This document shows, in pieces, positions 1 to 10,474 of a stretch of 64,000 bases of DNA. Source of the stretch: Calothrix sp. PCC 7103. GTDB taxonomy: Bacteria > Cyanobacteriota > Cyanobacteriia > Cyanobacteriales > Nostocaceae. The position numbers and the translations under genes are program-made. The DNA lies in assembly GCF_000331305.1 (NCBI RefSeq), contig NZ_KB217483.1:629365-693364 (forward strand), in the 5' to 3' direction. Within the stretch, counting starts at the first letter, position 1; every line of letters begins with the position of its first letter. The notes beneath the pieces are model-generated. The model worked only from the letters and a program-made list of their open reading frames with translations. It did no database searches and was not told the DNA's origin.

Positions 1-459
1 GTGCGCCTAAGTATGCAATTAAATTTAAAGTACCCTCGTGGGTAATTCCATTTAAGCTAATACATGTTATCAATATTCCCCCTTAATGCCCACAAAAAAA
101 TTACCAAAATTTTTGCATTAACACTTGACACACTTAAAAACTTTGGTTAAAACTATTTATAGAGGCAAGCGGAAAGAGCTTATTTCTCAGGTCTTCTGAG
201 AACAGCTTCACAACGATAAAGAAAAATTTTTCTAAATCATCCGGAATGACTCGATTCAGCCCTGTATAACAAATTATTCCAAACGATAAAACAATTACAT
301 TGAACAAAGTAAGATTACTGAATTTCAATGATGTTAATTCTCTAAGGGATAAAGATTAACTGGAAACATTTAGGGCTTTTTGTCGTCTCAAACACTTAAG
401 TTTCTTGGTTAAAGATAATTGAGCTTACAGAACAACACACAACTAAGAGGTATATAAAA
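1..459. other. Upstream region of the secreted-repeat array
   Basis: No convincing gene is seen here. A 64-codon minus-strand frame (134-328) starts at TTG without a clear ribosome binding site and resembles no family I know. The last 40 bases before the first array gene contain AAGAGG about 10 bases upstream of its ATG, a usable ribosome binding site. The promoter of the array should lie in the AT-rich stretch 340-430, but I cannot point to -35/-10 boxes with confidence. Confidence 0.4.
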
Positions 460-807
460 ATGTTGAAGAAATCTTTGGTTTTAGGCGTACTCGCAGCTAT
501 GACATTGGCGCCAGCAGCTTTTGCAGGTCAAACACAAGGTAATAGCACCGTTACCACCATCGAAGCAGGTAGCGTGGGTAATGGTAACAGAACCAATATC
601 AATAACAGAACTAATGTGAATCAATCTCAAAGCAATTATGAGGCTCGTCGCGTTAAACGCCACGCTCGTAAGTGCGCTGCTGGAAGCCAAACTCAAGGTA
701 ATGTTACTGACACTGCAATTAATGCAGGAGTGGTTGGAAATCGCAATAATACCCGCATTAATAATGTAACCAACGTTAGACAAGCTCAATCTGCTGCTTG
801 TTACTAA
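460..807 (+). CDS. Small secreted two-repeat protein, array copy 1
   Basis: This 115-residue protein has a clear signal peptide (basic MLKK start, hydrophobic core, AFA cleavage motif at residues 20-22). The mature part holds two imperfect 35-residue repeats, about 24-58 and 77-111. Each begins QTQGN, continues with AG-VGN-N and an alternating N-x-T-x-I-N pattern, and ends TNV-Q-QS. A basic linker (61-76) with Cys72 separates them, and a second Cys is at 114, so one disulphide is possible. Alternating polar and aliphatic residues with regular Asn and Gln suggest stacked beta-strands, as in curli-type or beta-solenoid proteins, but I see no true curlin signature. AAGAGG precedes the ATG. It is the first of five near-identical genes spaced 459-461 bp apart. 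Function unknown; export by Sec is likely. Confidence 0.85.
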   Translation: MLKKSLVLGVLAAMTLAPAAFAGQTQGNSTVTTIEAGSVGNGNRTNINNRTNVNQSQSNYEARRVKRHARKCAAGSQTQGNVTDTAINAGVVGNRNNTRINNVTNVRQAQSAACY

Positions 808-819
808 ATTTAGAGAATT

Positions 820-863
820 GAGACGTGATTTATTCCTGAAGGGACACTCCGTGAACACGTCTC
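820..863. promoter_or_regulatory. Inverted repeat in the array spacer (first of four)
   Basis: The arms GAGACGTG and CACGTCTC are perfect complements separated by 28 bases. The same element recurs in the next three spacers at 1281-1324, 1740-1783 and 2199-2242. The loop carries GACACTCCGTGAA, a motif also found at about 19155 and 60968. There is no T-run after it, so it may be an mRNA-stabilising hairpin or an attenuator, not a classic terminator. Its conservation partly reflects recent duplication of the whole unit. Confidence 0.55.
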
Positions 864-920
864 TACGACAACATCAAACGTTAAAACAACACACACACAA
901 CTAACTTAAGGTATATAACA

Positions 921-1268
921 ATGTTGAAGAAATCTTTGGTTTTAGGCGTACTCGCAGCTATGACATTGGCGCCAGCAGCTTTTGCAGGTCAAACACAAGG
1001 TAATAGCACCGTTACCACCATCGAAGCAGGTAGCGTAGGTAATGGTAACAGAACCAATATCAATAACAGAACTAATGTGAATCAATCTCAAAGCAATTAT
1101 GAGGCTCGTCGCGTTAAACGCCACACTCGTAAGTGCGCTGCTGGAAGCCAAACTCAAGGTAATGTTACTGACACTGCAATTAATACGGGAGCGGTTGGAA
1201 ATCGCAATAATACCCGCATTAATAATGTAACCAACGTTAGACAAGCTCAATCTGCTGTTTGTTACTAA
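921..1268 (+). CDS. Small secreted two-repeat protein, array copy 2
   Basis: This copy is almost identical to copy 1, with the same signal peptide, two QTQGN repeats, basic linker and paired Cys. It differs in the linker (Ala69 to Thr) and in the second repeat (NAGVVG becomes NTGAVG), and the C-terminus is VCY where copies 1 and 3 have ACY. Its leader, with TTAAGG about 10 bases before the ATG, is shared with copies 3-5 and differs slightly from that of copy 1. The roughly 112-bp spacer before it was duplicated with the gene, so the repeating unit is gene plus spacer. Function unknown. Confidence 0.85.
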   Translation: MLKKSLVLGVLAAMTLAPAAFAGQTQGNSTVTTIEAGSVGNGNRTNINNRTNVNQSQSNYEARRVKRHTRKCAAGSQTQGNVTDTAINTGAVGNRNNTRINNVTNVRQAQSAVCY

Positions 1269-1379
1269 ATTTAGAGAATTGAGACGTGATTTATTTCTGA
1301 AGGGACACTCCGTGAACACGTCTCTACGACAACATCAAACGTTAAAACAACACACACAACTAACTTAAGGTACATAACA

Positions 1380-1727
1380 ATGTTGAAGAAATCTTTGGTT
1401 TTAGGCGTACTCGCAGCTATGACATTGGCGCCAGCAGCTTTTGCAGGTCAAACACAAGGTAATAGCACCGTTACCACCATCGAAGCAGGTAGCGTGGGTA
1501 ATGGTAACAGAACCAATATCAATAACAGAACTAATGTGAACCAATCTCAAAGCAATTATGAGGCTCGTCGCGTTAAACGCCACACTCGTAAGTGCGCTGC
1601 TGGAAGCCAAACTCAAGGTAATGTTACTGACACTGCAATTAATACGGGAGTGGTTGGAAATCGCAATAATACCCGCATTAATAATGTAACCAACGTTAGA
1701 CAAGCTCAATCTGCTGCTTGTTACTAA
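1380..1727 (+). CDS. Small secreted two-repeat protein, array copy 3
   Basis: The protein is 115 residues, identical to copy 2 apart from Val at position 91 and Ala at 113. Signal peptide, two Asn/Gln-rich repeats and both Cys are intact. The near-identity of these copies means either very recent duplication or continuing gene conversion. I see no sign that any of copies 1-3 is non-functional: starts, ribosome binding sites and stops are all kept. Confidence 0.85.
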   Translation: MLKKSLVLGVLAAMTLAPAAFAGQTQGNSTVTTIEAGSVGNGNRTNINNRTNVNQSQSNYEARRVKRHTRKCAAGSQTQGNVTDTAINTGVVGNRNNTRINNVTNVRQAQSAACY

Positions 1728-1838
1728 ATTTAGAGAATTGAGACGTGATTTATTCCTGAAGGGACACTTTGTGAACACGTCTCTACGACAACATCAAACG
1801 TTAAAACAACACACACAACTAACTTAAGGTATATAACA

Positions 1839-2186
1839 ATGTTGAAGAGATCTTTGGTTTTAGGCGTACTCGCAGCTATGACATTGGCGCCAGCAGCTTT
1901 TGCAGGTCAAACACAAGGTAATAGCACCGTTACCACCATCGAAGCAGGTAGCGTAGGTAATGGTAACAGAACCAATATCAATTACAGAACTAATGTGAAT
2001 CAATCTCATAGCAATTATGAGGCTAGTCGCGTTATACTCCACACTCGTATGTGCGCTGCTGGAAGCCAAACTCAAGGTAATGTTACTGACACTGCAATTA
2101 ATACGGGAGTGGTTGGAAATCGCAATAATACCCGCATTAATAATGTAACCAACGTTAGACAAGCTCAATCTGCTGCTTGTTACTAA
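1839..2186 (+). CDS. Small secreted two-repeat protein, array copy 4 (diverging)
   Basis: The reading frame is complete at 115 residues, but this copy carries seven amino-acid replacements relative to copy 3: K4R, N49Y, Q57H, R63S, K66I, R67L and K71M. There are only about two silent differences. Four of the seven remove basic residues from the linker that precedes Cys72, so the strongly positive linker of copies 1-3 becomes mostly neutral. Cys72 and Cys114 stay. This may be relaxed constraint on a redundant copy or the start of specialisation; the sequence alone cannot decide. Confidence 0.8.
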   Translation: MLKRSLVLGVLAAMTLAPAAFAGQTQGNSTVTTIEAGSVGNGNRTNINYRTNVNQSHSNYEASRVILHTRMCAAGSQTQGNVTDTAINTGVVGNRNNTRINNVTNVRQAQSAACY

Positions 2187-2299
2187 ATTTAGAGAATTGA
2201 GACGTGATTTATTCCTAAAGGGACACTTTGTGAACACGTCTCTACGACAACATCAAACGTTAAAACGACACACACACAACTAACTTAAGGTACATAACA

Positions 2300-2650
2300 A
2301 TGTTGAAGAAATCTTTGGTTTTAGGCGTACTCGCAGCTATGACATTGGCGCCAGCAGCTTTTGCGGGTGATCAAGTACAAGGTAACAGCACCGTTACCAC
2401 CATCGAAGCAGGTAGCGTAGGTAATGGTAACAGCACTTATGTTGATAACACAACTAATGTTGGTCAATACCAAGATAAGTATGAATCTCGTCGTGGCAGA
2501 CATCACAGAAATAAGTGTTCTGGTGGAAGCCAAACTCAAGGTAATGTTACTGATACAGCAATTAATGCAGGAGTTGTTGGAAATTACAATCGCACCCGTG
2601 TGTCGAATCAAACCAACGTTAACCAAGGTCAATCTGCTGCTTGCTACTAA
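2300..2650 (+). CDS. Small secreted two-repeat protein, array copy 5 (variant)
   Basis: This 116-residue member keeps the first 23 residues of the other copies exactly but differs through the first repeat and linker (DQVQGN start, STYVDNTTNVGQYQ, linker rich in Arg and His). The second repeat is again close to the others, with NYNRTRVSNQTNVNQGQ. One Cys lies in the linker and one near the C-terminus, as in copies 1-4. It is intermediate between the near-identical copies upstream and the divergent relative just downstream, which supports an array growing by duplication and ageing toward its 3-prime side. Confidence 0.85.
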   Translation: MLKKSLVLGVLAAMTLAPAAFAGDQVQGNSTVTTIEAGSVGNGNSTYVDNTTNVGQYQDKYESRRGRHHRNKCSGGSQTQGNVTDTAINAGVVGNYNRTRVSNQTNVNQGQSAACY

Positions 2651-2685
2651 ATTTATCAATATATATAGGAATAGTTAAAGCAGTG

Positions 2686-3024
2686 ATGTTTAAAAAGTCT
2701 TTAATTCTTGGTATACTTGCAGCTTTTGCAATGGCGCCTGTCGCATTTGCGGGTGAACAAGTCCAGGGTGATACCGGAAACACAAATATTAATGCTAGTA
2801 ACGTTGGTAAAAACAACAGAATCCGTATTATCAACAGAACCTACGTTATTAGGTCACAAAGAAGAGCTAAAAAGCTTTTGTGTCAAACTCCTACCAATCA
2901 AACTCAAGGAGGCGCCAATGACACAAACATCTCAGCAGCAAACAACGGAAATCGTAATCGTATCAAAATTACTAATACTAACGTTGTTCAAGGTCAACAA
3001 TCTGCTGGCTGTTCTAATAGCTAG
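2686..3024 (+). CDS. Divergent secreted two-repeat protein (array relative 6)
   Basis: I start this gene at the ATG giving MFKKSLILGI, because the signal peptide then matches the upstream copies (MLKKSLVLGV); the frame is open further upstream to a TTG at 2641 inside the end of copy 5. The mature protein of about 90 residues again has two repeats: VQGDTGNTNINASNVGKNNR with RTYVIRSQ, and TQGGANDTNISAANNGNRNR with TNVVQGQQ. A basic linker containing Cys lies between them and a Cys lies near the end. The gene begins 36 bp after copy 5, so co-transcription is likely. Function unknown. Confidence 0.8.
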   Translation: MFKKSLILGILAAFAMAPVAFAGEQVQGDTGNTNINASNVGKNNRIRIINRTYVIRSQRRAKKLLCQTPTNQTQGGANDTNISAANNGNRNRIKITNTNVVQGQQSAGCSNS

Positions 3025-3057
3025 TATACAAAAATACAACTAATTAGGTATACAAAA

Positions 3058-3384
3058 ATGAAAAATTCTATCTACGCTCTTGGTTTATTAGCTGCTGTAC
3101 TTATGATTCCTAATGCTGCATTCGCTGGTTCCAAGCAAGACGCAAATCAAGAACTGAATCAATCTGTATATGTTAATGGTTCTGGCAACTCAGCCAATGT
3201 TAACGGTACCCAAATTACCACTCAAAACCAACGTAAAAGAGGATACTGTAGCCATCGCTCTGGTTCTCAACGTCAATATTCCGACCAACTTATGAATCAG
3301 AATGTTGGACTTGTAGGGCGCCGTAACACAGTTAACGTTAACGGAACGCAGAAAACAACCCAACAACAAGCTAGAGGTTGCTAA
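3058..3384 (+). CDS. Divergent secreted two-repeat protein (array relative 7)
   Basis: The 108-residue protein has a signal peptide ending AFA at residues 21-23. Two repeats follow, each closing with VNVNGTQ or ANVNGTQ and a Thr/Gln-rich tail. A basic linker with Cys64 separates them and the protein ends in Cys108. Architecture and Cys placement match copies 1-6 although sequence identity is low, so I regard it as the same family. It starts 33 bp after the previous gene, with TTAGG upstream of the ATG. A perfect 13-bp inverted repeat follows its stop and may end the transcript. Confidence 0.75.
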   Translation: MKNSIYALGLLAAVLMIPNAAFAGSKQDANQELNQSVYVNGSGNSANVNGTQITTQNQRKRGYCSHRSGSQRQYSDQLMNQNVGLVGRRNTVNVNGTQKTTQQQARGC

Positions 3385-3394
3385 TAGAAACCAG

Positions 3395-3429
3395 AAACCG
3401 GGTTTCTATATCGACAAGAAACCCGGTTT
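3395..3429. terminator. AAACCGGGTTTCT hairpin after the array genes
   Basis: Perfect 13-bp arms (AAACCGGGTTTCT and its complement) are separated by 9 bases, immediately after the gene ending at 3384. This is one member of a dispersed repeat seen again at 3825-3890, 19011-19071 and 20404-20488. In this position it could act as a terminator or a processing hairpin, although no long T-run follows. Confidence 0.5.
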
Positions 3430-3462
3430 ATTTAATTTATCATCACATATACGGAGAAAATC

Positions 3463-3819
3463 ATGAAACTAAAATTAATTGCTCTTGCTGCTGCAATGAG
3501 CGCACTGCCAACACTGGTTCCTACACTTACACCAAAAGCTAGCGCTACCTGTATTAACGTTGCTGTTGATAACCAAATCGCAGTTGGCGCCAAACGAGCA
3601 AACCAAACAAGAAACACCAGTCAAAGCATCAGCAAAGATTGTTTCGGTAATACCTCTACTGCAACCGGAACTCAAGTTTACACAGGAGGAGGTAAAGTCA
3701 ATCAAACCATCAATAGAACCCAACATCTATCTGGTGGTAAAAACCCAACAGGTGTAAGAATGCCACATATCAACATTAATGTTGGCACTAAAGTAAACGT
3801 ACCTCTTCGCAAGCGCTAA
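3463..3819 (+). CDS. Secreted Asn/Thr-rich small protein (array relative 8)
   Basis: The 118-residue product has a signal peptide with an ASA cleavage motif at residues 26-28. The mature part is rich in Asn, Thr, Gln and Val (DNQIAVGAKRANQTRNTSQS, then TQVYTGGGKVNQTINRTQ), with Cys30 and Cys60. The two-repeat layout is less obvious than in the upstream genes, but size, secretion signal, composition and Cys count agree, so it is probably a distant member. GGAG lies 6 bases before the ATG. Hairpins on both sides isolate it from the genes before and after it. Confidence 0.7.
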   Translation: MKLKLIALAAAMSALPTLVPTLTPKASATCINVAVDNQIAVGAKRANQTRNTSQSISKDCFGNTSTATGTQVYTGGGKVNQTINRTQHLSGGKNPTGVRMPHININVGTKVNVPLRKR

Positions 3820-3824
3820 TTTAC

Positions 3825-3890
3825 AGAAACCGGGTTTCTTGTTTATATCTTGTAATAAAAACAACAATTTTGCTTAGAAACCCGGTTTCT
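3825..3890. repeat. AGAAACCGGGTTTCT inverted repeat
   Basis: Perfect 15-base arms (AGAAACCGGGTTTCT and AGAAACCCGGTTTCT) are separated by 36 bases, just after the stop of the gene ending at 3819. It is a second copy of the element at 3395-3429 and probably folds as a hairpin in the transcript. Confidence 0.6.
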
Positions 3891-4033
3891 TTAATTTGAG
3901 TAATTGTAACAAATTGTTGCCCCCTCCTGGGGGCTTTCGGCATTGTTGGATAAATTAGTGGTAGAGACCAAATATATTCAGTCTCTACATCTAGATTTAG
4001 ACATTTTTAGACTTTTATCTTTAATTAAAACTT

Positions 4034-4606
4034 ATGCGAAAATTACTTCTTTACGGTCTTCCCCTTGGCTTAATTATCAGCCTATTCACCTTGTTCAGTA
4101 ATAATTCTTATAGCCAACAAACCTCAACGGTAAAAACTAGTATTAGCTCAAAACAAACTTCGTTTCCTAAGCTACTAAAAAGCTCCGCGCAAGAAATAGA
4201 CGACGACTCGTATGAAGACACAGAAGATGTTGATGATGATAACGTCAACTTTACATCTTCCAGTACTCAAATATCAGATAACACAAACATTCAAAGTGAT
4301 AGCATAAATATAAGTGCAGCGAATCGTAGACAACCTCATATACTAAAAATCAACTCTGGTGGCGCCAAAATACGAGGAGTAATCAAAGTTAACGGGAAAA
4401 TAGTCAGGCACCTAAATGGTAAACAATCTGAGATTAATTTATCACCCTATTTAACAAGAGGACAGAAAAAAGTAGAAATTTCAGGTCGTTACATACCAGC
4501 GACAGCATCCGTAAATGTAGAAATGAAGAGTACTTACAACAATATCACCCAGCAAACAAGTGGAGATGGAATCATAAATTACACCTTAAATTTAAACGTA
4601 GAGTAG
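4034..4606 (+). CDS. Secreted protein with acidic segment and C-terminal beta domain
   Basis: The protein has 190 residues and an N-terminal signal peptide (1-27, cleavage after SYS). A Ser/Thr-rich stretch follows, then a strongly acidic segment at 54-70 (EIDDDSYEDTEDVDDDN) that could bind cations or basic partners. The C-terminal 90 residues look like one beta-sandwich, with VNGKIVRHLNG, INLSPYLTRGQKKVEISGRY and ASVNVEM. I recall similar NLSPYL-RG-VEISG segments in uncharacterised cyanobacterial exported proteins but cannot name a family. It follows the small secreted genes on the same strand about 215 bp later. The acidic segment next to a set of basic-linker proteins is suggestive only. 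Confidence 0.75.
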   Translation: MRKLLLYGLPLGLIISLFTLFSNNSYSQQTSTVKTSISSKQTSFPKLLKSSAQEIDDDSYEDTEDVDDDNVNFTSSSTQISDNTNIQSDSINISAANRRQPHILKINSGGAKIRGVIKVNGKIVRHLNGKQSEINLSPYLTRGQKKVEISGRYIPATASVNVEMKSTYNNITQQTSGDGIINYTLNLNVE

Positions 4607-4957: not shown

Positions 4958-7900
4958 CTACAGTCTGGTTTCATATTCGATTAATGCTCTACTGTCTTCT
5001 GATAAATCTGTTGAACCTCTTAATAATATTTCTTCGTTGATTCGATATATTAAATTGTATCTGAATGGTTCATCGACGATAAAGACTCGTGATACTGATA
5101 ATGAGAAGTTCCTATTTACGTTAAATCCTGCTTCTGCTGCTAATCCTAATACTGATGAACTTCTATTTGTGCTGCGGTTGTTGATGACTGTGGGATATAA
5201 GCGTAGTTCACTTAAACCTATTGTTTGACCGAGTGAACTGATTATTCCTTGTAGGGGTGTTAATATTCTATTTCCTGCTGCGGATATTATTCCTAGTCCT
5301 CCGTCTTGTTGGTTGAATGCATTAATAATAGTCCCTCCTATTAAAGATACTATTTCGGCTCTATTGCGTCTTGGGTCACTTGTTAATTCTAAGTTGTCAT
5401 TTATATTACTTGCTTGACCGTTGACACGTGCGAATACACGCACACTGCGTAATGTACCTAAGCTTGTTACTGGAACTTCATTTATTTCTCCCGATATTGA
5501 TGATGTGGGTAGTCGAGTTGCATTTGATTCTGGTACTATTGCTAACAATCTTACGTCCAGTATTGGGTCTAAACCTAGACTTGGTGTAAACGTTGCTGTT
5601 TGTTCGTATCCTCTTTCTAATACAAATTGTGTGGCAAATAAGTTTATTTGTCCCCCTGTTAAGTTGATTACTCCTTCGGGAAGTGGTTTTTCTAATGTAC
5701 CATTTATCGTTAAGGCGCCTTTTGCATCGAAACTCAAAAAGTCTTGATTTGTTATACTCGATAAAAGTGGATTAGTTAAATTTGTTGGCAATAGGTCACT
5801 TGTAACCCGCACGTTATCCTCTAATATTAATCTTAGTCCCGAAAACTCAATGGAAGGACGTTCTGTTGTAATATTTTGGTTAGTTGCTGTTTCTTGTTGT
5901 GGTTGCTGTCGTTGTTGTCCTGACCGTTGAGTTATTGATACTTCTCCTGAAGCTAGTCTTATTGTTCCACCCAATACTGGTTGGACTGCACTACCTGTAA
6001 TTACCGCATCTCCACTAACTCCCCCTTCATACAGTCCTTGTAATCTCACATTCAAGTCATTTAATGATACTGTCAAAGGATTATTTACTGTTTGCTGCTC
6101 AAATATTGGTAAACTTCCTGCTGCTGTTACTCGTTCTCTATTATATAAAGCTTCTAAATTCTGCACATTTATTACATCACGGTCAAATTGCACGGCGCCT
6201 GTTACATTAGTTAAAGGCTCTGTTAATGCTACCGTTGTTAAAGTCGCATTATTCACGTTTGCTGTTCCGGTTATCGTTGGTTGACTTAATGTTCCCCCTA
6301 TCGCTACATTTACCTCTCCTGTACCATCAACCCAGTTAACTTGGTCGGTAAGCACATTCAACAACGATAAACCATCATTTTTTACATTCGCTGTTATATT
6401 TATTTGGTTACTATCTGGTTTGGCGCCGAATGGTAATGCAGCAGGTATATTACCTATAATATTAAGTGGTTGTGCATCTGTTGCTGCTACTGTACTACCA
6501 AAATTTAAACGTGCATTATTTAAATTAAAACTCAACTGTGCGCTTTTTATCGGTTTAGAGTTCAACGTCGCATTTGCTAAAGACACATCCCCTTTTACAC
6601 TCGGATTTGCTAAACTACCACTTAGCGATGTTAAAGCATTAATTTCACCCGTCGCATTTACTGGTAAATTACCAAATCGTTGTAATGCTGAAATTGGTAA
6701 GCTTGATACTCGGAATTGTCCTGATAAGTCTTTTTGTCCCAACTGTCCTGTAAATGCTAAAAGTCCACCTTCAAAACCTACCTGTAAAGGTTGTAACGTT
6801 AATGTTCCATTCGTAAAATCACCATTTGCCGTTACTTCCCCAATATTGTAACTCCCCCATTCCACATTTGAACCATTTACATTAAAGTTCGTATTTAACC
6901 CCGACTGTAACGAACCTGTTACATCAAGTTTCGCACTGATTAAACCTTGTAATTCTGAAAGTGCTGGTATACCCGTTGCTTCTTGTTGCTGCTGAACTTT
7001 TTCCTGTTTAGCTATAACATCTGTAATCTTCTGAAATATATCCAACTGCGTTAATAAACTCACATCCTGCGGTATAAATAACTCAGTTGTTGGTCTTAAT
7101 ACCGAAGCTCCTGCTAATTGTGGAGACTCTACACCCGTTAATAAATCTTCAAAGTTATAAATACTCAATGCTTGTAAAAGGTTTTCGATTCTGACTTGAT
7201 TTACCGAAGCTTGAACTTGAACTTGACGATTTCCTTGTGTCTCTACGTTACCATTCAACGATATTAAACTATCACCGACTTGAAATTGTCCATTTTTTAA
7301 ACTTGCGGTTCCATTCGTAAAGTCAAAGTCTCCTGTAAATGCTTCTCCTGCTATTCTACCAATTCTAGGTTGAACCACTGCAACGGCGCCACTTGCATTT
7401 CTCGTTCTAATATTCGCAACTATATTCCCAGAGATATTCCCTGCTAACGGTTGGATATTAGGGATATTCGCAGGAACAAGACTTCCTAAAACAGTTACAG
7501 GAAAGTTTTCTGCACTAGCAATTAAATTATCTCCCTCTGTCCTACCCTTTGCGACACTCTCTCCACGTTGAATTATAAAGTCTGTAGCTAGATTATCGGC
7601 GCCTAGATTCACTGCTATTCTATCTTGTCTGTTGCCCACTAAGTTCAAAGCGGCACCCGTCCCACCAGCATAACTTACACTTCCTGTCAAAACTGGGTCG
7701 AACGCTAAGTTATTTACAGCAAAGTTGCGTAACTCTAAATTTCCATTGGCAACAGGTGTGTTTAAATTACCCGTGACATTTCCCGTAAAATCTACTCTAC
7801 CAGCCAAAGCTAAATTTGGTATTGTTACTGGCGCCTGTTGTAAGTTAAAGTTACGTGCAGCAACATTCAAATTCAAATCTGTAATTTGTGGTGTTTGACT

Positions 7901-10474
7901 TTCGGTGTTGACTGCTATTACACCATTTGCGGTTAAACCTGTAGTTCTCGCACTCAGTCCGACTTGTTGACCATCCCACTGTAAGTTACCCACTATGGGT
8001 TGCTCAAGTACCGATACCCCTTGAGATAAATTAAAATTTCCACTTCCACGAATATTTGAGAGAGCAAACGATTTTGTAGTCCCCCCTATATTAAAGCTAC
8101 TATTTAACCGACCACGTAAGTTTGACGAAAACTGATTTAAGGCAATTTGCGAAACACCACCATTAACTTGCCAACGACCGTTATTCAAACTGATATTGCT
8201 TATATTGACGGCGCCGGATGCTACATTATTTATAGTGGCAAGTCCTAATACTTGTATATTCTCTAGCTGTAACGAGTCTGTTGTACCCACTAAATTCAAC
8301 GCTGTATTCAAAGTACCCGATGACAGTTGTTTCGGTAACTGTAATTTATCAAAACGGTTCAACTGTACACCATCCGCACGAACAGCTACATTAAAACGTT
8401 TATCTTCTACTCTACCCTGCGCTGTCACCGTTCCACCAGCGAAGCGAATATTCGCATTTTGCAACTCTATATTATTATTACTGGCAATGCTAATTTCTCC
8501 CGAACTCGGATAAGTAGAACTCGGCGCCGCAAATTGTGCTATTGTCCTTAAATTACCCAGCACACCCGAAATATTCGCATTCGCATTTACATTACCTATT
8601 GTAATTGGAGCATTCACTTTATATGCACGCGCTATCACATCCCCAGGTATTTGCAATGCGTTTAAATTTAAGTTGACTCGACCTTGTTGCGCTAACTGTA
8701 TATTACCCCTACCTGTTACTACTCCACCAATTTGTGGCGCCACTTTTAAGTTTTGTAAAGCGAGTTGTAATGAAGATGTTCCCAAACGACCAGAAACGTT
8801 TCCATTGGCGCCGATATTACCTATATTTATTGGAAGTGCAATATTATAAACTTGAGCAACTGCGTTTCCAGGAATTCCCGAAGCTTGTATATTTAGGTTT
8901 ACATTACCTTGTTGCGCTAACTGTATATTACCGCTTGCTGTGACTGTTCCACCAATTTGTGGCGCCACTTTTAAGTTTTGTAAAGCGAGTTGTAGTGGTT
9001 GACCGAGTTGACCAGAAATATTCGCATTTGCAGCAACGTTACCAATATTGAGAGGAAGTGCAACATTATATATACCCGCAACAGAATTTCCAGGAATTCC
9101 CAAAGCTTGTATATTTAGGTTGACATTTCCATTTTGAGCAAGTTCAATTTTTCCACTTCCTAAAATTTGTCCTCCTAGGGTTGGTGTGACTTGGAGGTTG
9201 GAAAGGGTAAGAACGGGTCTACCTAAAATATCTACACGAAAGTTGCTGCTGACATTATTCAGTTGCAAACGGTCAATAGTCGCTAGTTTTACTGTACTAA
9301 TGGTTCCTGTTGCGGTGGGTTGTTTGATGTTTCCTTGAATTTTGACGTTTGCTTGTACTTGTCCGATAGCTGTAACTGGTAACTTTGCGTTGAGGGTGCT
9401 GAGAATGGTTTGAATATTGGTGGGTAAAATCAGCGCATTTAGATTGTAACCTGTTTGAGTATTGACGGCGCCTTGTACCTGAAGTGGTATTTTCCCAAAG
9501 TTCGTGGTTAGGTTATTTGTAGAAATGTTCTGACCTTGAAACTGTAAGTTCCCTTGAGTGTTGGTAATTAATTGGGGAATATTATCGACTTTCGCAGCAA
9601 TTTTATTTAAATCGGTGGTTCCAGTTACACTTATAGGCGCCTTCGGTGTAATATCTACAGTTAAGTTGGCATTAACGCTACCCGAAGTCGCATTTATTGG
9701 TGATTGCACTAATTTAGTTATATCAGCAACGAGTAAATCACGCGCTTGGACATTTAAGTTCGTCGAATTTACCTGTCCTGAGACTAACTGTGTTTTGCCA
9801 TCGATATCTACTTTACCTTGAGTATTATTCTGAGAGGCGCCGATATCATATGTTAAGTTCGTTATAGTAGTGGTGCCTTGCTTCTCTGGTAAAATTCTGA
9901 CAACACCATTGGCTTGATTAAAACCAACAGTAGTTTTAGGTGTACCAGGTTTTGGTGTGGGTACTAAGACCAAACTGGCATTGCGTATAATCAAACTTTC
10001 TAAATTAGTCGTAATAAAACCTTTCTCTTCTTTCCCTGTCTTTATTTGTGTAGTTAACCACTGACCATTTTTATCTTGCTCTAAATAAACACTTGGTTCG
10101 ACTAAAGCGACATTCAAATTCAAAGTCCTGGTCAAAAGAACTTGTAAAGGATTAAATTGAACATCGATACCTTTTGCTGTAACTCTATCTGGGTCTGTCG
10201 CAGTTGCGGGTATATTGAGCGAACTAAATCGGATACTGTTTAAAGTTACACTATCTACCTTACCTACTTCTATCGGTCGTCCGAGTAACTGAGCTAGATT
10301 CGTTTCAACTAAGGGTACTAAATCTTTAAGGATAAAATTTCTTAACCACCAGGCGCCACCACTAATGGAAGCGAGTAAAACCACAATCAAAGCAATACTA
10401 CCACGTCTCAACAGTAAAAGCCATAATCGACGATTAAGTGGTTCTGAATCACGCCCTGGTGGTAAATGTCTCAT
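4958..10474 (-). CDS. TamB-family translocation/assembly protein (DUF490)
   Basis: This 1838-residue protein has a single N-terminal membrane helix (about 22-46) followed by a very long, Asn/Val/Leu-rich region of short beta repeats, the pattern of TamB and related bridge-like lipid-transfer proteins that span the periplasm. The C-terminal 350 residues, with the GLDPILDV and TDLSEDSRALIEYETRL segments, match the TamB (DUF490) domain. Residues about 435-641 contain three close copies of a 74-residue repeat (LQLALQNLKVAPQIGG, NLNIQASGIPGNAV). By family analogy it helps insert outer-membrane beta-barrel proteins or carries phospholipid outward. No Omp85 partner gene is adjacent. About 15 GGCGCC sites fall within it. 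The start has no obvious Shine-Dalgarno sequence. Confidence 0.93.
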   Translation of the reverse strand: MRHLPPGRDSEPLNRRLWLLLLRRGSIALIVVLLASISGGAWWLRNFILKDLVPLVETNLAQLLGRPIEVGKVDSVTLNSIRFSSLNIPATATDPDRVTAKGIDVQFNPLQVLLTRTLNLNVALVEPSVYLEQDKNGQWLTTQIKTGKEEKGFITTNLESLIIRNASLVLVPTPKPGTPKTTVGFNQANGVVRILPEKQGTTTITNLTYDIGASQNNTQGKVDIDGKTQLVSGQVNSTNLNVQARDLLVADITKLVQSPINATSGSVNANLTVDITPKAPISVTGTTDLNKIAAKVDNIPQLITNTQGNLQFQGQNISTNNLTTNFGKIPLQVQGAVNTQTGYNLNALILPTNIQTILSTLNAKLPVTAIGQVQANVKIQGNIKQPTATGTISTVKLATIDRLQLNNVSSNFRVDILGRPVLTLSNLQVTPTLGGQILGSGKIELAQNGNVNLNIQALGIPGNSVAGIYNVALPLNIGNVAANANISGQLGQPLQLALQNLKVAPQIGGTVTASGNIQLAQQGNVNLNIQASGIPGNAVAQVYNIALPINIGNIGANGNVSGRLGTSSLQLALQNLKVAPQIGGVVTGRGNIQLAQQGRVNLNLNALQIPGDVIARAYKVNAPITIGNVNANANISGVLGNLRTIAQFAAPSSTYPSSGEISIASNNNIELQNANIRFAGGTVTAQGRVEDKRFNVAVRADGVQLNRFDKLQLPKQLSSGTLNTALNLVGTTDSLQLENIQVLGLATINNVASGAVNISNISLNNGRWQVNGGVSQIALNQFSSNLRGRLNSSFNIGGTTKSFALSNIRGSGNFNLSQGVSVLEQPIVGNLQWDGQQVGLSARTTGLTANGVIAVNTESQTPQITDLNLNVAARNFNLQQAPVTIPNLALAGRVDFTGNVTGNLNTPVANGNLELRNFAVNNLAFDPVLTGSVSYAGGTGAALNLVGNRQDRIAVNLGADNLATDFIIQRGESVAKGRTEGDNLIASAENFPVTVLGSLVPANIPNIQPLAGNISGNIVANIRTRNASGAVAVVQPRIGRIAGEAFTGDFDFTNGTASLKNGQFQVGDSLISLNGNVETQGNRQVQVQASVNQVRIENLLQALSIYNFEDLLTGVESPQLAGASVLRPTTELFIPQDVSLLTQLDIFQKITDVIAKQEKVQQQQEATGIPALSELQGLISAKLDVTGSLQSGLNTNFNVNGSNVEWGSYNIGEVTANGDFTNGTLTLQPLQVGFEGGLLAFTGQLGQKDLSGQFRVSSLPISALQRFGNLPVNATGEINALTSLSGSLANPSVKGDVSLANATLNSKPIKSAQLSFNLNNARLNFGSTVAATDAQPLNIIGNIPAALPFGAKPDSNQINITANVKNDGLSLLNVLTDQVNWVDGTGEVNVAIGGTLSQPTITGTANVNNATLTTVALTEPLTNVTGAVQFDRDVINVQNLEALYNRERVTAAGSLPIFEQQTVNNPLTVSLNDLNVRLQGLYEGGVSGDAVITGSAVQPVLGGTIRLASGEVSITQRSGQQRQQPQQETATNQNITTERPSIEFSGLRLILEDNVRVTSDLLPTNLTNPLLSSITNQDFLSFDAKGALTINGTLEKPLPEGVINLTGGQINLFATQFVLERGYEQTATFTPSLGLDPILDVRLLAIVPESNATRLPTSSISGEINEVPVTSLGTLRSVRVFARVNGQASNINDNLELTSDPRRNRAEIVSLIGGTIINAFNQQDGGLGIISAAGNRILTPLQGIISSLGQTIGLSELRLYPTVINNRSTNRSSSVLGLAAEAGFNVNRNFSLSVSRVFIVDEPFRYNLIYRINEEILLRGSTDLSEDSRALIEYETRL

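Follow-up and report, generated by a model that had tools for sequence, protein, structure and literature searches.

What do the eight small open reading frames (ORFs) lying head to tail at positions 460 to 3819 of one stretch of Calothrix sp. PCC 7103 DNA encode, and does this array stand on its own? The stretch, called the window here, comprises 64,000 bp (bases 629365-693364) of contig 12 of the 11.6 Mb genome. An initial annotation, made from the letters alone, had described the eight ORFs as a tandem array of secreted two-repeat, cysteine-paired proteins, and their coordinates are confirmed. We find that a secreted-protein cluster, conserved in filamentous cyanobacteria and without a name in the libraries searched, is present here as a paralogous copy in amplified form. 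T denotes the array-type secreted two-repeat family, and X, c4 and c1 denote separate partner families of the same cluster (Table 1). Our best reading is that T proteins are subunits of an extracellular assembly, like curli or Fap in its working and a member of neither; to an extracellular assembly of stacked beta-arches formed by T we would give a probability of about one half.

Gene order and distribution of the cluster

Gene order was derived by scoring the ORFs of loci with five profiles. Thirty-four named loci were retrieved through c1, using two short peptide patterns that may miss relatives, so that c1 is present in all of them by construction; contig ends truncate several of them, several come as two loci from a single genome, and many coincide with regions among the anonymous loci (the other 48 loci scored). 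The order that recurs is a divergent helix-turn-helix (HTH) regulator, T in one to nine copies, c4, X and c1. T is held in 33/34 named loci and comes before X in 30/34; X is followed by c1 in 30/34 (one intervening c4 allowed), c4 is found in 28/34 and the divergent regulator in 19/34. The other 48 loci show the same order wherever the region is complete. The window and its counterparts L044, L046, L048, L050 and L052 are without c4 and the regulator, and L115-L119 carry T alone.

The array had been thought to end at 3819; the system runs on to the c1 gene. Where three near-identical genes had been counted there are four (copies 1-4, 92-98% to copy 1), and of three supposed divergent relatives, those at 2686 and 3058 hold up as T types, with one counterpart apiece in each of five genus-mate arrays. 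The third, at 3463, belongs to the separate X family: comparison of X and T profiles aligned only 14 signal-peptide columns (probability 9.5%), and close kinship with the seven T genes is rejected. Single-linkage BLAST clustering with the low-complexity filter off did place X relatives in one cluster with T, a link that we read as probably shared composition; a very remote kinship may remain. The T and c4 profiles likewise aligned over 14 columns only (probability 60%).

Table 1. Promoter element and genes of the cluster, in window coordinates
Feature	Position	Strand	Description
Conserved promoter-like element TTGACACACTTAAAAACTTTGGTTAAAA	125-152	+	TTGACA, 17 bp, TAAAAC; zero mismatches to relatives' element
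T gene copy 1	460-807	+	115 aa; signal peptide, repeat 1 about 24-60, basic linker, Cys72, repeat 2 about 77-113, Cys114
T gene copy 2	921-1268	+	115 aa; 97% protein identity to copy 1
T gene copy 3	1380-1727	+	115 aa; 98% protein identity to copy 1
T gene copy 4	1839-2186	+	115 aa; 92% protein identity to copy 1
T gene copy 5	2300-2650	+	116 aa; 78% protein identity to copy 1
T gene 6, divergent type	2686-3024	+	112 aa from ATG; 49% identity to copy 1
T gene 7, most divergent type	3058-3384	+	108 aa; 33% identity to copy 1
X family gene, predicted to encode a secreted protein with paired cysteines, separate from T	3463-3819	+	118 aa; assigned by profile comparison and locus order
c1 family, predicted secreted, last cluster gene	4034-4606	+	190 aa; disordered N-terminal part, C-terminal all-beta (immunoglobulin-like, Ig-like) domain about 85-190

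A profile search of cyanobacterial genomes, which the initial annotation had proposed as a check, found both the family and the cluster conserved. Profile A1, built from nine T proteins of the own genome, matched 18/60 related genomes, own included (E ≤ 0.001): 7/7 in the genus, 11/29 others in the family and 0/24 in other families. Each of the seven genomes of the genus has 5-9 T genes. The broader profile A2, built from 43 T proteins, matched 73/217 genomes and 24/56 genera in the family, and 69/388 genomes and 35/149 genera in the order, 14 of these 69 being of the same family (E ≤ 1e-4); per-genome matches are lower bounds, since the candidates of each genome were scored in part. Outside the family, the matches in the order are weaker (E 1e-20 to 1e-4) and owe part of their score to the signal peptide. 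The c1 profile matched 16/386 genomes of the phylum (E ≤ 0.001). Carriers of c1 among the named loci include Calothrix, Dulcicalothrix, Scytonema, Brasilonema, Tolypothrix, Hassallia, Fischerella, Chlorogloeopsis, Iningainema and Spirirestis; Nostoc and Anabaena are absent from this list, which the two short search patterns may leave short of relatives. Chlorogloeopsis fritschii PCC 6912 (L090) holds T, c4, X and c1. One genome of another order (L123) has T, X and c1 together, with T matches of E 1e-5 to 3e-7 only. The T-like genes there (L123:8673-9825), beside X and c1, have three repeats by inspection and a more curlin-like look (Q-x-G-x-G-N); a Pfam scan gave them no curlin match.

The annotation knew of no described family with this layout, and neither do the libraries: no Pfam or NCBIfam model scores above its cut-off for T. 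Identity with the acid-shock protein Asr is rejected, the match lying below the curated cut-off (E 0.00012 in 1/43 members, E ≤ 0.1 in 4/43) and reaching, in the window proteins, no further than residues 2-77. DUF6153, SurA_N, lactococcin 972 and the other database names returned for T all fall below curated cut-offs too. With five window proteins (four T and X), the best PHROGs match was a holin at E 0.1, on the signal peptide of gene 3058; against PDB sequences the best E was 0.61 (A1) and 1.1 (A2). In the open-access literature searched we recognised no description of a T-type layout.

Repeats, cysteines and predicted strands of T

All seven T proteins of the array begin with the Sec-type signal peptide that had been read from the sequence: a K/R start, a hydrophobic stretch and an AxA end (by inspection of alignments). 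The two repeats of about 35 residues claimed for the first seven proteins were recovered by half-versus-half alignment (z 8.5-12.5 against shuffled controls, 1000 shuffles each). In a wider set of 195 non-identical T proteins, z exceeded 3 in 175/179 of those with 100-135 aa (100 shuffles each; 16/195 were left out for length). Composition from residue 25 to the end is Q 13.4, N 13.0, G 11.0, S 10.6 and T 9.0%.

The Cys-paired layout stands as well. Both cysteines (C72 and C114 in copy 1) are kept without exception in an alignment of nine sequences: the seven array proteins, the product of a paralogous locus with a single T gene on contig 7 of the own genome, and a copy beyond the scaffold gap at the left of the window. 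In the wider set, 125/195 proteins have two cysteines, 68/195 none and 2/195 an odd number, both of the latter being truncated or mis-started ORFs. Because the count is 0 or 2 in 193/195 and the odd two are mis-cut, the cysteines most likely pair within the chain; and because C72 lies before predicted strand 3 and C114 after strand 4, a C72-C114 bond would close repeat 2. The even counts and the basic linker would also suit a soluble, disulfide-closed periplasmic or extracellular beta protein that binds metal, glycan, pigment or protein without polymerising, its genes amplified for binder dosage. The two repeats per chain of most members suit such a binder too, as do X and c4, likewise small even-Cys proteins (two cysteines in 43/43 c4; two in 28/49 and four in 21/49 X). 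We consider it somewhat unlikely, however, given the 68 cysteine-free members and given that the alternate-residue conservation, Q/N-rich ladder and twice-repeated G-x-x-N turn of T resemble stackable beta-arches.

An AlphaFold prediction from 43 sequences places the T strands at 26-39, 44-60, 79-92 and 97-113, with turns at 40-43 (GNGN) and 93-96 (GNRN). Along all four strands conservation alternates (i, i+2), in line with the alternating beta pattern first noted by eye: even and odd positions differ in entropy by 1.10 bits on average, against 0.31 after permutation, and 0/20000 permutations were as high. The conserved positions are Q, Q, N, T/Q, T, I/Q, A/G, G-x-G-N, V/T, I/Q, N/A, T/Q, V/T, Q and Q, and G-x-G-N occurs 139 times in the 195 T proteins against a shuffled mean of 31.9. 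Mean hydrophobicity differs little between the two strand faces; the ladder is thus a polar one and does not form a hydrophobic core of the classical kind. Alternatively, T might be ice-binding or desiccation-surface proteins selected for dosage, ordering water on a flat beta face rich in Thr, Gln and Asn. Gene dosage is under selection in insect antifreeze arrays, and the Thr/Asn/Gln-rich repeats, possible disulfide clasp and tandem amplification of T would fit; yet Q, N, I, A, V and T all occur on the conserved face, which is no pure T-x-T array, and the host genera include ones with warm-water members, and we hold this explanation to be most improbable.

In the assembly that we favour, T chains would be exported by Sec, and each mature chain would fold into a stack of two strand-turn-strand units, either beta-arches or hairpins, whose turn is the conserved G-x-x-N. 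On one face, every strand would carry an evolutionarily fixed ladder in which Q, N, T, I and V predominate, while residues on the opposite face may vary freely; a disulfide, where cysteines are present, would clasp repeat 2 shut. Stacked chains would then make up a fibre, or a material like that of a sheath, outside the cell. Within it, types 2686 and 3058 may act as specialised subunits such as a cap or nucleator, X, c4 and c1 may be surface, anchoring or chaperone partners, and amplification of the 460 type would raise the output of the bulk subunit.

Selection, dosage and known fibre systems

The ratio of non-synonymous to synonymous substitution rates (dN/dS) is 0.07-0.45 in 17/17 same-type gene pairs of the genus (11 T of the array, with strict orthology within arrays not certain for the 460 type; 2 T of the second locus; 2 X; 2 c1), so the genes are real and constrained. 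Such purifying selection speaks against secreted antimicrobial or allelopathic (bacteriocin-like) proteins, amplified and diversified for competition, as does the scan of conserved neighbours, in which we recognised no gene for immunity or transport. T proteins do share small size, secretion, paired cysteines and tandem arrangement with that class, and copy 4 differs from the other near-identical copies by 7-9 non-synonymous and 0-2 synonymous changes, several of them in the basic linker, as a decaying or diversifying copy might. The lactococcin 972 match that would point the same way comes from one distant relative (1/10 proteins) and stays below threshold (15.6 bits versus a cut-off of 32.1). 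On this balance an antimicrobial role appears improbable.

The initial annotation took gene amplification to mean that high dosage is useful, and a tree of 85 T rows bears this out in part. Five near-identical own-genome copies, the one across the gap included, group together (96/90), as do four D. desertica copies (95/95) and four L046 copies (94/93); those of L044, L050 and L052 show no grouping beyond that of shuffled labels. The array is differentiated too, because the 2686 and 3058 types are each present once in 6/7 genomes of the genus, where each forms one group with a single member in six genomes (100/100 and 100/99). Many forks of the tree lack resolution because the proteins are short. 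From the genome-wise grouping in part of the arrays and these single-member groups, the bulk type would seem to have been amplified or homogenised in some lineages, alongside at least two fixed specialised types.

How close does T come to known fibre systems? Curli membership is rejected by the curlin profile, the strict curlin motif, CsgEFG tests and hhalign. The curlin profile (PF07012) gave three weak matches in the own genome, none above cut-off (best E 0.9), matches in 0/244 genomes of the phylum at E ≤ 0.01, and none in the T proteins scanned. The strict motif X6QXGX2NX10 is depleted in T (7 in 195 proteins versus a shuffled mean of 27.7; the controls CsgA and CsgB have 4 and 5), and so is X6QX10Q (62 versus 270.8). 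The degenerate NX5QXGX9 is slightly enriched (42 versus a shuffled mean of 28.3 and maximum of 41), which may be weak evidence toward curli likeness. Alignment of T with E. coli CsgA/B by hhalign gave a probability of 1.2%. Curli are described as Sec-exported strand-arc-strand repeats with a Gly/Asn turn, alternate inward Q/N, and several subunit and accessory genes (PMC10192328, PMC3521004), and by that description T proteins are alike in being Sec-type repeat proteins with a predicted Gly/Asn turn, alternating Q/N, and several T genes beside partner genes. They differ in a repeat of about 35 residues instead of 23, two repeats per chain, and a Cys pair.

Fap has repeats of about 37 residues with linkers between, cysteines and Sec export; FapC has three repeats and a CxxC outside the core, and the full fap operons described are from Proteobacteria (PMC6173800). 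T is similar to this account in repeat length (about 35 versus 37), linker, Cys and Sec export, but has mostly two repeats, and its cysteines stand 42 residues apart (72, 114), not as CxxC. A Fap exporter was not recognised among the scanned neighbours, with no FapF profile search made. EbfG proteins use a double-glycine leader and a dedicated transporter that contains a peptidase, whereas T has a Sec-type signal peptide and no double-glycine leader (by inspection). In Synechococcus elongatus, one operon encodes EbfG1-4, small secreted proteins of the matrix; an amyloid phenotype was seen with EbfG1-3 in the curli-dependent generator, EbfG2 formed fibril-like structures, and the sections of that report at hand describe no repeat/Cys layout, which sets EbfG apart from T by description only (PMC9981879). 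EbfG may be the nearest cyanobacterial analogue of T in function, by a different export route.

Several points weigh against an extracellular T assembly. The predicted T monomer is of low confidence (mean predicted local distance difference test score, pLDDT, 53.6; predicted template modelling score 0.30), Foldseek found no PDB match with it, and one and the same alignment underlies both the model and the alternation test; for the self-assembling fibre or matrix originally suggested, the model offers four long strands, too weakly predicted to name a fold. The own genome has no CsgG or CsgF match, and its CsgE match (E 1.04) is below cut-off, with the E. coli control detected each time; nor was an outer-membrane exporter recognised among the scanned neighbour genes. 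In other families of the order, genes resembling T often lie dispersed, apart from X and c1, and c1 is found without T in L093, L126 and L127 (the last two having c1 alone). The L044, L050 and L052 copies are not grouped by genome beyond shuffled labels (shuffles as low in 90, 64 and 500 of 500). Sheaths are mostly polysaccharide, and expression or proteome records for T were not found. Disulfide pairing, outer-membrane export, assembly, a place in the sheath, the roles of the parts and HTH control are what we infer.

Filamentous cyanobacteria give shape to soil crusts, mats and stromatolites through their sheaths, for which few protein building blocks have, to our knowledge, been described. 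A bolder form of our reading, which we regard as rather unlikely, is a new dedicated cyanobacterial fibre system, in which disulfide-clasped two-arch subunits, encoded by tandemly amplified genes, with fixed accessories (HTH regulator, c4, X and the Ig-like c1) and their own promoter would, without CsgG-type secretion, supply the protein framework for the firm sheath of taxa resembling Calothrix, Scytonema, Tolypothrix and Fischerella. Provided that its subunits assemble, T would give cyanobacteria a disulfide-clasped counterpart to curli and Fap and might serve as a source of hydrophilic protein material. As a secreted family, T has no name so far, keeps a fixed set of partners, shares a promoter element and is found in tractable hosts; C. 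fritschii PCC 6912 is reported to be naturally competent (PMC9429965).

Promoter element, neighbours and the scaffold gap

In relatives the promoter-like element sits between the divergent HTH regulator and the T array, and at both own-genome loci TTGACACACTTAAAAnCTTTRGTTAAAA lies upstream of the first T gene. We read TTGACA and TAAAAC of TTGACACACTTAAAAACTTTGGTTAAAA as putative -35 and -10 boxes. Allowing up to 4 substitutions, a scan of 94 loci (many redundant) located the element in 34 distinct contexts. It begins 66-107 bp from the regulator start in 24 of the 26 regulator-bearing contexts; in the remaining two, the regulator ORF start was called too far upstream. With ≤3 mismatches the own genome has four sites (window 125, the copy across the gap, the contig-7 locus and one on contig 2), and a reversed-pattern control gave zero. 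The contig-2 site carries 2 mismatches and is rejected as a further locus, with no T, X, c4 or c1 gene in the surrounding 15 kb (best profile match E 0.3). Because the element is nearly confined to T loci in the own genome, a small dedicated regulon seems plausible, with the HTH protein as candidate regulator. A strongly conserved Cro/C1-type HTH protein, divergent from the T gene, is encoded at L010:8072-8419. Just before the first gene of the window, CACTTAAGTTTCTTGGTTAAAG at 393-414 is a partial second copy of the promoter core, possibly an operator.

For c1, AlphaFold gives a well-predicted beta domain (60 residues at pLDDT 90 or more), which we call Ig-like because of weak Foldseek matches to beta domains (best E 0.016).

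True T copy number is unreliable because a 100-N scaffold gap (L009:14266-14365) lies inside the array, abutting window base 1 on the left. A further T copy lies across this gap, and the 663 bp after it exactly repeat the sequence from L009:13375 on. The 100 N and this exact repeat on both sides suggest overlapping contig ends, so the extra copy is probably not a firm additional gene and is rejected as one. Window 300-2700 has no inverted repeats with arms ≥10 within 60 bp.

Regulator-bearing loci are often flanked by MltA (15 loci), a polysaccharide deacetylase (14) and a PIN-like gene (14; below cut-off). The window array is adjoined by a gene for TamB, part of an envelope transport complex (4958-10474, minus strand), as are five counterparts, in this genus only. 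Palindromic short repeats of the AGAAACCGGGTTTCT type lie beside X at about 3386-3431 and 3824-3893 of the window, and one also lies at about L010:6960-6980, beside c4 of the paralogous locus.

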